The notes beneath the pieces are model-generated. The model was not told where the DNA came from and searched no databases. It saw only the letters and a list, made by a program, of their open reading frames with translations. Both the position numbers and the translations under genes were made by a program. This document shows, in pieces, positions 24,304 to 63,455 of a stretch of 64,000 bases of DNA (its first letter is position 1; each line of letters opens with the position of its first letter). Source of the stretch: Halothiobacillus sp. (lineage in GTDB: Bacteria > Pseudomonadota > Gammaproteobacteria > Halothiobacillales > Halothiobacillaceae); NCBI GenBank assembly GCA_016278265.1, contig JADQCE010000001.1, positions 310,001-374,000 on the forward strand, in the 5' to 3' direction.

Positions 24304-24304
24304 T

Positions 24305-24575
24305 TAGGGAAGGTCTGCACGAATAGCCAAAGCCTCTGGCTTACCGGCTTGTTCGCCATCAAGGCGCCGATTCGAAGTCGGGCTCATTGCCCGGCGAGAA
24401 TCGGCAACACCGAGGGCGGGCAAGCCGGTAAGCCCCTTCGGGCGGGCCGCCAGGCGCCCATCTGCGGTGTTGCAGCGCTTGCCAATGGCGACGGCCATTG
24501 GGCGGCGCACTGCGCCTTGCATCTGGATGCCTGGCGACCCGCAGAGGCGTTGGCTATTTGTGCAGACCTTCCTTA
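24305..24575. repeat. MITE-like element, copy A (271 bp, TA-flanked)
   Basis: The element is bounded by TA on both sides. It has terminal inverted repeats of about 32 bp (left GGGAAGGTCTGCACGAATAG, right end reading AGGAAGGTCTGCACAAATAG) with three mismatches. The interior has further inverted repeats (CTTACCGGCTTG and CAAGCCGGTAAG) and no credible gene. The core of the ends, TCTGCACGAAT, is shared with copy B and in part with copy C, but the interior differs. The TA target and lack of a transposase suggest a non-autonomous IS630/Tc1-type MITE. It sits between hemB and the divergent gene at 24664. The rest of that gap shows no gene. Confidence 0.75.
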
Positions 24576-24663
24576 GGATAGCAACCCGACACGCTCTGTC
24601 CCATCGGCCCGTCCATGCGGCCGGGGCTGGATCGATTGGGATCACCAAGCTGCGGGAGGTGGC

Positions 24664-25083
24664 ATGTACGAGTTCACGTTTCTGACGCCGGATCGCGGCG
24701 CGGGGTTCGTCAAGCGGCTCGAGGCCGAGGGACTGTCGGTTCGCGTGGCACGCGACCCGATGGCCGAGGAGGCCACGACGATCTCGATTCCTGACGACAT
24801 CAGCGATGAGCTGGTCGACCGGATCGAGGGCTGGTACGAGGAGGAAACGCAGGCGGCCGAGGCCGAGTTGTTCCGCGACGGCGGGGCAGAGGCCGCCATC
24901 TCCGCCGGGGTCTGGGTGACGCTGGCGGACGGCCGGTCGAGCTTCGCCCCGATCGAGCCGTCGACCATGAGCCGGATGCTGTCGGTCCTGAGCCCGGATG
25001 AAGTGGGCGAGTTCGTCGACCGGGTGGCCAAAGCGGTCGAGCATCCCGACGACACCCCGGCCTGCGCGCGCCGCGAGGACTGA
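24664..25083 (+). CDS. Hypothetical acidic protein
   Basis: I do not recognise this 139-residue protein. It is acidic and soluble, with no signal peptide or membrane helix. It starts MYEFTFLTPDRGAGFVKRLE and continues with an alternating alpha/beta pattern (LSVRVARDPMAEEATTISIPDDISDELVDRIEGWYEEE). A C-terminal helical part contains MSRMLSVLSPDEVGEFVDRVAKAVEHPDD. GGGAGGTGGC gives a good ribosome site and codon use matches the neighbours, so it is probably real. It stands alone between a repeat element and the DsrE-like gene. The first half could be a ferredoxin-like or ACT-like fold, but that is a guess. Confidence 0.65.
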   Translation: MYEFTFLTPDRGAGFVKRLEAEGLSVRVARDPMAEEATTISIPDDISDELVDRIEGWYEEETQAAEAELFRDGGAEAAISAGVWVTLADGRSSFAPIEPSTMSRMLSVLSPDEVGEFVDRVAKAVEHPDDTPACARRED

Positions 25084-25236
25084 AAGCCCACGAACAAATC
25101 GCAAGGCGTTGTTTTCCCGGCAACGCGATGCGAATCATGGCCTACCCTCTAATCGAGGGACATCCGGACCTTCCTCTGCTTGACGTGCCGGTCGGCACAT
25201 CGAGTGCGTGGTCCGGCACGACGAGAGGTGGCCGTC

Positions 25237-25788
25237 ATGAAACGCACGATCCTCCCCGCTTGGCATCTCGCGGTGCCGGCACTCCTGATGTGGTTGACCC
25301 TCGCTCTTGCAGCGCTGGGTCCATCGGCCGTCTGGGCGCAGGCGAAGGTCATCACGCCCGACTACCAGCCGCCACGGGTGGTCTACGACTTCTACCTGGA
25401 CGATCCGGCCAAGATCAACGCCGCCATGTACTGGGTGCGGTCCTTGATCAATCCGCTGCAGGCCAGTCCGTACAACATGGACCCCATGCTGGACATGGAT
25501 ATCGTGGTCATCATCCACGGCACCGAGATCGTCACCGTGGCGAAGAAGAACGAGGCGAAGTACGAGGACGCGGTCGCCCGCATGCGCTACTACGCCAACC
25601 TCGGGGTGGATTTCCACGTCTGCGGTCTGGCCGCCGAGGACTACGACTACGACAGCGAGGACTTCCAGGACTTCATTACCCTGGTGCCTTCGGCCTTCAC
25701 CGACCTGGTCCATTACCAGCAGCAGGGCTACGCGGTGATCAAGCCCGAGGTCTTCGTGCGCACCCAATCGATCGAGTCGATGCGCTGA
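25237..25788 (+). CDS. Periplasmic DsrE/DsrF-like sulfur-relay family protein
   Basis: The 183-residue protein has a signal peptide (hydrophobic stretch LAVPALLMWLTLALAALGPSAVWA, cleavage near AQA). A DsrE-like domain follows: VVIIHGTEIVTVAKKN, YANLGVDFHVCGLAAEDYDYD with the single conserved cysteine, and LVPSAFTDLVHYQQQGYAVIKPE. DsrE-like proteins carry persulfide sulfur on this cysteine. Exported members are common in sulfur-oxidising bacteria, so periplasmic sulfur handling is plausible. No dsr, sox or tus genes are nearby. The ATG at 25237 follows GAGAGG and begins with a basic signal-peptide head; an in-frame ATG at 25180 lacks a ribosome site. Confidence 0.82.
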   Translation: MKRTILPAWHLAVPALLMWLTLALAALGPSAVWAQAKVITPDYQPPRVVYDFYLDDPAKINAAMYWVRSLINPLQASPYNMDPMLDMDIVVIIHGTEIVTVAKKNEAKYEDAVARMRYYANLGVDFHVCGLAAEDYDYDSEDFQDFITLVPSAFTDLVHYQQQGYAVIKPEVFVRTQSIESMR

Positions 25789-25817
25789 CGCTCTGAGCCG
25801 GGTGTTATGCCGTATCC

Positions 25818-26089
25818 TAGGGAGCCTCTGCACGAATACCATGCCGCTCTGCGCGCCTTGAGCCGGGCAGATGCAAGGCGTTCGTCCGCCGCGGAAGGGT
25901 GATTCCCTTTCCAAGGACGACAACGCAGCAGATGCCCGGCCCAAGGCGCGCCCGGAGGGGCTTGGCGAGTCGCCCGTGCTCCGCGTTGCGATGTCTTGGC
26001 GTGGCCACCGGCACGCCGGCGACATCACGCCTTGATCACGAACGACTCGCCAAGCCAGAGCGGCATGGTATTCGTGCAGAGGCTCCCTA
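25818..26089. repeat. MITE-like element, copy B (272 bp, TA-flanked, perfect terminal repeats)
   Basis: TA flanks the element on both sides. The 32-bp terminal inverted repeats (beginning GGGAGCCTCTGCACGAATAC) are perfect. Inside are nested inverted repeats, among them CTTGGCGAGTCG with CGACTCGCCAAG and CCGGGCAGATGC with GCAGATGCCCGG, so the whole element can fold on itself. It shares most of its interior with copy C at 63076, with only scattered differences by eye. It has no reading frame with coding features. Perfect ends imply recent insertion or ongoing conversion. Its right edge lies six bases before the ATG of the next gene. Confidence 0.85.
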
Positions 26090-26094
26090 TCGCC

Positions 26095-62039: not shown

Positions 62040-63078
62040 CACGACAGACGCCAACCTGTCGGGGCTGGCCGAGCAACGGCTGATCAGCGATCCGGCCACC
62101 ATCCGCAGTGCCGGCTGGCTGAACGATGCCTGGTCGCAGCTCGAGCGGATGATTGTCGGCGGGCGCCTGCCGCACGGTCTGCTGCTGCACGGGCGTCTGG
62201 GCGCGCCGATGACGGCCTTGCTCCAGACACTGGCGCGCCGCCTGATCTGTGAGGCACCGGTCGATGGCTGGCCCTGCGGCGAGTGTTCCGCCTGCCGTCA
62301 GGCTGAACAGGGCAGCTTCCCCGACCTGCACCGACTGGCGGATGATCCCGAGCATCGCGATATCCCGGTGGATGCCATTCGGACTTTGATCGACGGGGCG
62401 TTTATCACCCGTTATGGCCGCATGCGGCTGGTGCTGATCGAGCGCATCGAACGACTCAACCGGTCGTCGGGCAATGCCCTGCTCAAGCTCCTGGAAGAAC
62501 CGCCGGAGTCGATGCAGTTTCTCTGCACGGTCGAGCAGGTCGACCGGTTGCTGCCCACGATCCGCTCGCGGTTGCAGCGCATTCGCCTGCGCGAGCCACG
62601 TCCCGAGGAACTAGCTGCGTGGTGGCGTCAGGCCAGTGGGTGTTCGCCCGAGCGGGCCGAGCTGCTGGCGTTCATCGACGATCCCACCCTGGTCGATGGC
62701 ACCGATCCCACGTTCGACTGGCAGGCCGTCACCAGTGCCTGGGTGCGGCTGGCCGAGCAACCCCAATCGCCGCTGGCGCCGATCGCGCCGTGGCTGGCGA
62801 CACCCCGGCCGGTGCTCGCCCGTTGGCTGTTACGGCTCTGGCCGGCGGTGGCACGGCGCCAGGCCGGTCTGTCCGATGTGCTTCCGGCGGCGATCGTGCC
62901 GATGATCGAGCGACTTGCCCGAGCCCACGACAGCGAGCGGTGGCTGGCAGTGCAGACCCGCCTGATCCAGTTCGCCCGCGAGGCCGGGCATCCGCTGCAT
63001 CCCGAGCTGTCGGTGGAGCATCTGGCGCTCGATCTGGTCGACCCACGGCTTGCCCGCCGCCTTGAGCCTGTCGGCTAA
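62029..63078 (+). CDS. holB: DNA polymerase III delta' subunit (HolB)
   Basis: HolB is the clamp-loader subunit that contacts delta. The 349-residue protein has the AAA+ fold, with a P-loop-like region that is not a functional Walker A (LLLHGRLGAPMTALL). The zinc site is CEAPVDGWPCGECSAC. PVDAIRTLIDGAFITRYGRMRLVLIERIERLNRSSGNALLKLLEEPP and IRSRLQRI follow. The TAA stop begins exactly at the left TA of repeat copy C, so the third stop base belongs to the element. Confidence 0.94.
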   Translation: MVADTTDANLSGLAEQRLISDPATIRSAGWLNDAWSQLERMIVGGRLPHGLLLHGRLGAPMTALLQTLARRLICEAPVDGWPCGECSACRQAEQGSFPDLHRLADDPEHRDIPVDAIRTLIDGAFITRYGRMRLVLIERIERLNRSSGNALLKLLEEPPESMQFLCTVEQVDRLLPTIRSRLQRIRLREPRPEELAAWWRQASGCSPERAELLAFIDDPTLVDGTDPTFDWQAVTSAWVRLAEQPQSPLAPIAPWLATPRPVLARWLLRLWPAVARRQAGLSDVLPAAIVPMIERLARAHDSERWLAVQTRLIQFAREAGHPLHPELSVEHLALDLVDPRLARRLEPVG

Positions 63079-63345
63079 GGAAACCCTGCACGAAACGGAT
63101 ATCGCTCTGCGCGCCGGAGCCGGGTAGATGCAAGGCGCTCGCCCGCCGTGGAAGGGTGAGTCCCTTTCCAAGGACGACAACGCAGCAGATGCCCGGCTCA
63201 CGGCGCGCCCCGCGGGGCCTGCCGATCCGCCCGTGCTCCGCGTTGCATCGTCTTGACGTGACCACCGGCACGTCGGCGACAACGCGCCTTGATCACGAAC
63301 GGCTCGACAGGCCAGAGTGACATCCGTTTCGTGCCGAGTTTCCTA
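63076..63345. repeat. MITE-like element, copy C (270 bp, TA-flanked)
   Basis: Imperfect terminal inverted repeats (left GGAAACCCTGCACGAAACGG, right end reading GGAAACTCGGCACGAAACGG) lie next to flanking TA dinucleotides, allowing one extra base on the left. The interior closely matches copy B, including AAGGGTGAGTCCCTTTCCAA, CAACGCAGCAGATGCCCGG and CGCCTTGATCACGAACG. Where B has CTTGGCGAGTCG/CGACTCGCCAAG, C has the changed pair CCTGCCGATCCG/CGGCTCGACAGG, so the arms change together and folding is kept. It contains no gene. The following 110 bases to pilZ hold only the presumed pilZ promoter. Confidence 0.82.
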
Positions 63346-63455
63346 ACTTCGACCGCTCCGCGATTGCCGGTAGACTGTCTAGTAGAATTTCCGCGTTCCG
63401 ATCCGGCGTACCTGATGGCCGGGCCGATCGATACACCGTGACGAGGTAGCGTGCA

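Follow-up and report, generated by a model that had tools for sequence, protein, structure and literature searches.

Miniature inverted-repeat transposable elements (MITEs) are usually seen as remnants of one insertion sequence, the interior of which is irrelevant. Among the small, palindromic and gene-free or nearly gene-free repeats described so far, Correia/NEMIS, RUP, ERIC, YPAL and CIR are often located at TA dinucleotides; as far as the sections on these families in a 2007 review go, TA sites are described for ERIC, RUP is thought to rely on an IS630 enzyme and the RNA of CIR is depicted with two arms (PMC2229807). QMITE1 of Coxiella burnetii is, according to the parts of its description that deal with copies and structure, present in dozens of copies, transcribed and folded with -192.7 kcal/mol (PMC5896051). 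Here we characterize three repeat elements, A, B and C, located in a 64,000 nucleotide long stretch of DNA (the window) from Halothiobacillus sp. (Gammaproteobacteria; Halothiobacillaceae). The window comprises positions 310001-374000 of contig C10 (JADQCE010000001.1, assembly GCA_016278265.1) of a 2.73-Mb genome, called G000 in the following.

We consider A, B and C to be non-autonomous MITEs of the IS5 type, i.e. a structured chassis that is moved in trans by different IS5-type transposases and whose fold is maintained in the mobile lineage. We assign this reading a probability of about 0.8. The elements are short, multicopy and without a transposase gene, they carry IS5 ends, sit at YTAR sites with a 4-bp duplication and are polymorphic in their insertion. 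An earlier note, made from the sequence alone, had already taken them for MITEs, in agreement with the end repeats, multiple copies, empty sites, target duplication and missing transposase. MITEs with IS5 ends are ordinary. Unusual is a covarying two-lobed interior of fixed size that occurs across many bacterial families together with different IS5-type ends. Size, fold and internal-loop motifs are retained despite large sequence divergence. This length-conserved and covarying interior, which is shared far beyond the genus, had been overlooked before.

Counted from GGGAA end to end, A extends over 24307-24573, with arms of 34 nt that are 91% complementary. The corresponding values are 25820-26087 and 34 nt with 100% complementarity for B, and 63078-63344 and 45 nt with 78% complementarity for C. 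After subtracting the site duplication, lengths of 265, 266 and 265 bp are obtained for A, B and C, and all three are located at the positions given in the earlier note. The strong internal pairing was likewise confirmed: compared with 200 dinucleotide shuffles each, the folding energy provided z values of -17.5 (B), -14.9 (A) and -9.8 (C), and for each element none of the 200 shuffles folded as low. B and C have their interior in common, as had been stated (85% identity across 227 nt). That A would share mainly the ends did not hold, since a search with B aligned A in opposite orientation with 68% identity over query positions 8-269. The features in the window are the following:

24304-24307, no strand: left TTAG of A, 4-bp target duplication (sequence, empty-site comparison)
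24308-24572, no strand: element A without target duplication, GGAAGG...CCTTCC, 265 bp (sequence; empty sites in relatives)
24338-24434, plus strand: 97-nt lobe of A, by the strand of its motif (fold)
24442-24542, minus strand: 101-nt lobe of A, by the strand of its motif (fold)
24573-24576, no strand: right TTAG of A, 4-bp target duplication (sequence, empty-site comparison)
25817-25820 and 26087-26090: flanks of B, CTAG and CTAT, alike at three of four positions
25821-26086, no strand: element B without flanks, GGAGCC...GGCTCC, 266 bp (sequence, fold, empty sites)
25851-25951, plus strand: 101-nt lobe of B with the CAAGGCG / CAACGC motif (fold)
25959-26056, minus strand: 98-nt lobe of B with the same motif on the opposite strand (fold)
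63075-63078: left flank CTAA of C, containing the TAA stop codon of a holB-like gene
63079-63343, no strand: element C, GGAAAC...GTTTCC (sequence, fold)
63109-63208, plus strand: 100-nt lobe of C (fold)
63216-63313, minus strand: 98-nt lobe of C (fold)
63343-63346: right CTAA of C, only when the final C of the end is assigned to the repeat

In the fold of the full element, a terminal stem of about 30 bp bears two lobes, one of 97-98 nt and one of 101 nt, which are connected by a mini-hairpin of 7-8 nt. Lobes of 96-99 and 100-103 nt were found in 83 of 103 full elements, a set that includes a copy from Nitrosomonas. The two lobes are mutually related and oppositely oriented; their common consensus, obtained from 51 of 66 lobes after excluding near-duplicates and one Nitrosomonas lobe, contains GCAAGGCG and GCAACGCCG. 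For the whole element, 87 oriented copies were reduced to 60 with less than 93% identity, from which L234 (too long) and L092 were removed and the Nitrosomonas copy was held out. The dropped L092 has 80% identity to A across 199 nt. RNAalifold on the remaining 57 elements yielded 86 base pairs, 57 of which had pair-preserving changes on both sides. Paired cells amounted to 96.2% compared to 79.2% after shuffling. The covariation score, calculated on the structure derived from that same alignment, was 0.459 compared to 0.162 for shuffled data (reached in 0 of 500 shuffles) and to 0.04-0.09 when the partners were slid. Variable stem positions showed up to six pair types.

Comparison with related genomes revealed how the elements had entered their sites. 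At locus A the site was uninterrupted in G001, G002, G003, G004, G005 and G008, and the element was present in G010, i.e. the locus was empty in six of the seven other genomes aligned. Locus B was empty in eight of nine (G001-G004 and G007-G010); the ninth, G005, carries a one-lobed copy with the lobe inverted. In G000, locus A reads CGTTAG, GGAAGG...CCTTCC, TTAGGATAG, and the empty site (e.g. in G002 and G005) reads CGTTAGGATAG. The comparison of the filled with the empty site thus provides a 4-bp duplication of TTAG. The TA dinucleotides that had been noticed beside the elements are present, yet they are part of this 4-bp YTAR site. Among the 103 full elements, 31 had a perfect 4-bp flanking repeat (shuffled mean 7.05, maximum 15 in 2000 trials) and 60 had YTAR on at least one side. 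TA on at least one side was common among the Guyparkeria copies.

The three copies were expected to represent many more in the genome, and this was borne out. Searches of G000 gave 38 matches with B and 43 with A as query, including some arm-to-arm duplicates. Allowing up to two mismatches, we counted the end motif 56+49 times compared to 3+3 times for the reversed control. Within about 253 kb, in stretches selected around matches, 41 paired candidates were obtained (42 end pairs minus one double pairing). Of these, 15 measured exactly 268 bp and 27 were between 255 and 285 bp, a length of about 268 bp being kept even between copies as unlike as A and B. The elements proved, at the two loci as well as genome-wide, to be neither solitary nor ancestral at orthologous positions. 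The exact end motif was found in 10 of 11 Guyparkeria genomes, 4 of 10 sister-genus genomes and none of 6 from two further genera. Among relatives that bear a name, the elements occur in Guyparkeria and Halothiobacillus, and on these grounds G000 probably belongs to Guyparkeria. Other forms in Guyparkeria comprised six of 59-98 bp, mostly only the stem, ten of 164-200 bp with one lobe or a single continuous hairpin, three of 340-361 bp and eight of miscellaneous sizes. Three irregular copies of G000 (C6:85469-85819, C6:622089-622449 and C10:657314-657565) have, judged by eye, an extra palindromic module in a lobe in common. This module around GAGGTTCGTCC / GGTTCAGGGGCGAGCC looks like a second small repeat nested in the lobe.

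Outside the genus the chassis is much more widespread than its ends. An exact scan for paired ends at the element distance in 84,980 species genomes returned 64 stretches: 62 from Guyparkeria, Halothiobacillus or Halothiobacillaceae, one from Nitrosomonas europaea and one from a Blackburnbacteria (Patescibacteria) bin. A covariance model, R1, built from the 57 copies of the Guyparkeria element family only, scored the Nitrosomonas copy, which lies outside the model, with 92.2 bits (E 3.7e-24) and the Patescibacteria copy with 52.1 bits (E 3.6e-13). The latter (L248:631-903) has a CTGCACGAAT core and a different terminus, its outermost end being AGCCTT/CGCCTT. Among 369 genomes drawn from the class, 85 had R1 matches, those near the limit of 0.01 being possibly due to chance; they belonged to 67 of 271 genera, and 4 of the 85 were Guyparkeria. 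In this search, which covered more than 40 genomes, stricter filters were applied and at most five candidates per genome were scored. The best match of each top-scoring genome was inspected, giving a favourable sample of 26 loci. In 25 of them the lobes measured 95-101 nt with a stem of 26-32 pairs, and the remaining one had lobes of 100 and 119 nt. TA was present on both sides in 19 of the 26. The motif AAGGCG occurred in the first half of 19 loci and on the other strand of the second half in 18, such that the exact word is missing from a quarter to a third of them. The recurrence of one fixed two-lobed fold among many bacteria that are only distant relatives suggests a role for the fold as such.

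These copies are hardly detected by blastn. In 72,556 plasmid records, whole-element blastn gave no match for B and L299, one partial match for A and two for L302, a class element. The matches of L302 led to replicons with copies in Variovorax paradoxus (138 bits) and Halomonas sp. PA16-9 (99 bits). The match of A was a lone lobe, carried by a Comamonas odontotermitis plasmid (46.7 bits; L375:985-1078); this lobe is without ends and directly follows a ruvA gene. No match was found in phages for the one element tried, and the viral contigs returned nine single end-motif matches without a second strong end, which we take as chance, and none with a longer pattern. Rfam at gathering score detected in 14 class loci only a neighbouring cobalamin riboswitch; in the class genome locus L304, the element (1501-1766) is located 4 bp from a strong match to this riboswitch (1313-1496). 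For the region of A and B, Rfam hits with E of at most 5 were a 23-bit match to a microRNA family over A (cut-off 268) and one small nucleolar RNA match outside the elements, both far below cut-off.

The ends point to the enzyme that moves the elements. The end of A had 14 weak matches on plasmids, the best with E 0.1. The two best regions were examined and turned out to be termini of IS5-family elements, on a plasmid of Acidovorax sp. DW039 and on pADP-1. In both elements, the left end is GGAAnnTCTGCACGAAT and the right end a close form of it, with TTAG flanking either side. The A/B/C-type ends of Guyparkeria equal GGAAnnTCTGCACGAAT, and selected Guyparkeria copies agreed with each of the two elements at 16 of the first 16 left-end positions. 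The transposases of the DW039 and pADP-1 elements match NCBIfam NF033581 (E 1.6e-97 and 1.4e-98) as well as Pfam PF05598 and PF01609. IS5 itself resembles these elements at its end and likewise targets YTAR. The GGAAnnTCTGCACGAAT ends and the TTAG shared with IS5-family elements are thus indicative of an IS5-like rather than an IS630-like mobiliser. Insertion sequences with matching ends, as had been called for, are present on these two plasmids; in the genus itself no complete partner was found (see below). A weaker case, in addition to this subfamily and to the second one described below, is seen inside a single genome: in G282 a fragmentary IS5_4 (NF033581) gene adjoins an end that agrees at 14 of the first 16 positions with the genome's own two-lobed elements. 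When 11 loci with IS5 fragments were scanned with the element end of their own genome, three had an end with at most three mismatches (L322, L323 and L329). L323 fits at 15 of 18 and L329 at 16 of 18 positions; L322 was rejected, since by eye its end belongs to a different insertion sequence.

The class loci, moreover, carry diverse ends. In the 26 loci we found IS5-like GGAAnnTCTGATnAATT forms, GGGCACCTCTATTAATTG, GTGTACTGCTTCACTCTTGG, GTACTCTTTCAAGGTAATAAAT, GTGGGCCAAGTGGAAAG and ACTAACCCGAACACTGG. The end of the Variovorax element is GGCCTGTTAACGCTATGG at TA. Ends of this type also occur on IS5-family elements with NF033580/PF13340 transposases on Pseudomonas aeruginosa and Enterobacter plasmids, with CTAG on both sides and agreement at 15 of the first 16 positions in both comparisons. 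One chassis carries, as these two cases show, ends of different IS5 subfamilies. A further type, GTGTACTG, was counted 38+36 times in G110 compared to 0+0 in the control; the TAGTGTACTGCTTCACTCTTGG pairs of this genome are spaced by about 270 bp and also by 167-194 and 61-90 bp, as in Guyparkeria. ISApu2 was discarded as source of the GTGTACTG ends, since the matching stretch lies away from the terminus of ISApu2. Beside the GTGTACTG type, GTACTCTTTC represents yet another end type. Short-end searches with three other end types gave only weak matches (E 2 to 9), and the one region behind them that was examined is without annotation. One weak match from the search with the Variovorax-type end lies near an IS481 gene.

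NF033581 reached its cut-off in 0 of 11 Guyparkeria genomes compared to 5 of 16 other genomes of the order. Two weak matches exist within the genus: a C-terminal piece in G000, truncated by the end of contig C1 (L082, 39 bits), with no CTGCACGA end inside the 1.6 kb examined, and a 24-bit match in G007. PF01609 was above cut-off once in the 11 genomes, in an unrelated IS4-type element. A partner role of the IS4-type element at about 37 kb of C10 was dismissed, its ends CAGAACCGAATGGCGC... not fitting. This element (L081, about 36992-38561 of C10 in G000) has 34-nt ends that are 94% complementary and unrelated to the repeats. For three sister-genus elements (L199-L201) the ends were inspected, two being related and one unrelated. 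The related ends are GGAAGGTCTGATCAATT at TTAA on both sides and GGGAACCTCTGATTGAAT, for which only the left end was seen. A fragmentary repeat with GGGAACCTCTGATTGAAT ends in the sister genus is matched by R1 (L212, 29.6 bits).

From these data the following scheme may be drawn. An IS5-family transposase, now absent from these genomes or coming and going, would recognise the GGAAnnTCTGCACGAAT ends and, probably acting in trans, insert the element into YTAR sites, thereby duplicating 4 bp. The conservation of the interior is most likely explained by the folded single strand, either DNA or RNA, being required for the element to be mobilised or to persist, such that only lineages with an intact fold would go on spreading; this is the weakest step of the scheme. 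A more far-reaching version, which seems possible but which we advance with less than even confidence, is a single ancient structured parasite with a two-lobed fold of about 265 bp and conserved loop motifs. It would have spread through Pseudomonadota, and perhaps Patescibacteria, by swapping its ends to suit the available IS5-type (perhaps other) transposases, with the folded RNA or single-stranded DNA being active in mobilisation.

Several results weigh against our reading. A partner transposase in the same genome, as looked for in an IS5-type MITE, was not found: no complete IS5_4 transposase turned up in the 11 Guyparkeria genomes, several of which are drafts in which a full copy may be interrupted at the end of a contig, such that mobilisation in the genus is unobserved. 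Of 12 element-rich other genomes, 7 were without a match at 1e-10 and 2 had one above cut-off, in a search that covered NF033581 only. G083 has a full-length IS5_4 gene (L320), beside which no end fits. An insertion sequence that fits the GTGTACTG-type ends was not seen in 12 stretches around solo ends in G110, which were judged by recognisable elements of insertion-sequence size, open frames not being searched for transposases. Covariation counts sequences and not events, and with few subfamilies the shared descent inflates the counts. A perfect 4-bp repeat is lacking in 72 of the 103 full elements. In 22 of 23 G000 copies compared, the nearest relative had 84-94% identity, arguing that there was no recent burst. 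Finally, five base differences separate the A copy of G000 from its orthologue in G010, none of them compensated, so that the fold seems unguarded once inserted at the locus. The same differences are a weak pointer to a constraint that acts during movement, away from a host function.

An alternative that we regard as rather unlikely is that these are ordinary IS5 MITEs with a functionless fold, the arms being kept complementary by mutational template switching. Template switching in quasi-palindromes copies one arm onto the other. In agreement with this, the two 34-nt arms had on average 5.1 differences inside one copy but 9.6 between copies, locus B of G005 shows lobe loss together with inversion, and stem-only and one-lobe forms occur in Guyparkeria and, judged by end-to-end distance, in G110. 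Such a correction should, however, erase internal loops and let lengths drift, whereas the lobes stay at 97-98 and 101 nt and the CAAGGCG/CAACGC loops recur across families. Between the orthologous A copies no correction is seen either, though on five differences only. Given the fixed lobe lengths and the conserved unpaired motifs, template-switch correction is insufficient as an explanation. A host-useful structured RNA, or an element of mRNA processing or termination that rides on a MITE, appears improbable. It would account for the very stable fold, the conserved loops and the intergenic positions: B lies between a DsrE-like and a PNPOx-like gene, both on one strand, C directly after the holB-like gene, and the lone Comamonas lobe behind ruvA. 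The sites are, however, empty in most relatives (A in 6/7, B in 8/9), no Rfam family was found and locus A shows no compensation. As for the other neighbours, hemB and a gene without Pfam match complete the set around A, B and C; no transposase is located inside or adjoining the three elements, the sole PF01609 gene of G000 above cut-off lying elsewhere.

Two further explanations concern kinship. ERIC might be a one-lobe member of the same class, given that one ERIC-like copy (L318) has AAGGCG and CAACGC at the corresponding positions of the model and that the review's section on ERIC describes TA sites (PMC2229807). The 12.1 bits (E 0.052) of L318 are, however, also reached by an inverted repeat of L316 and L317 that is unrelated, the four remaining ERIC copies have 6.3-6.7 bits, and neither a sequence hidden Markov model nor the whole-element model detects any ERIC. 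A relation that was convincing by eye was thus unsupported by the sequence model and by two covariance models, and we hold it for very improbable. Least credible is the mobiliser proposed in the earlier note, an IS630/Tc1-type enzyme with a 2-bp TA duplication. TA flanks are indeed seen, in 19 of the 26 class loci on both sides and in Guyparkeria often on one side or both. At locus A, however, comparison with the empty site shows a duplication of the 4 bp TTAG instead of TA alone, and the ends equal those of the IS5 family; an IS630 family search was not made. The IS630/Tc1 reading is contradicted for the Guyparkeria copies and could still hold for GTGTACTG-type ends elsewhere.

Non-autonomous IS5-type MITEs on a structured chassis would reverse the usual view of MITEs: the interior is conserved and the ends are exchangeable, between at least two IS5 subfamilies and across many bacterial families. 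If movement requires the fold, this would be a DDE-type transposition system that relies on a folded strand. Should the version with a single ancient parasite be true, the elements would represent a structured hyperparasite of insertion sequences rather than insertion sequences in decay. For annotators the covariance model gives access to a repeat class that blastn hardly detects, with no or partial plasmid matches for the four elements searched.

Searches of open-licence papers brought up no description of such an element. It is not mentioned in the consulted parts of the pangenome study of Guyparkeria (PMC9032823), a review from 2024 on MITEs in prokaryotes (PMC10969869), the 2007 review (PMC2229807) and the Coxiella MITE paper (PMC5896051). 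The MITEs described in the relevant sections of the 2007 review are about 100-200 bp long, compared to about 265 bp here, and nothing is said there on compensating changes, a fixed two-lobed size or end exchange (PMC2229807). QMITE1 resembles the two-lobed elements in its strong fold and dozens of copies; as described in the sections concerned, it differs by its length of about 400 bp, an IHF site and the absence of orthologues reported by its authors, and it is by this description that we set it apart (PMC5896051). The IS5 elements with NF033581 transposases on pADP-1 and the DW039 plasmid share with A, B and C the left end GGAAnnTCTGCACGAAT, a close right end and the TTAG repeats, but they carry a transposase and have no match to the two-lobed models below E 1. 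The IS5 elements with NF033580 transposases on pWTJH2 of P. aeruginosa and pIncA_P7536 of Enterobacter have GGCCTGTTAACG or GGCCTGTTAACA at CTAG, like the Variovorax element, and differ from it in being of the autonomous type, with two frames and a coding interior.

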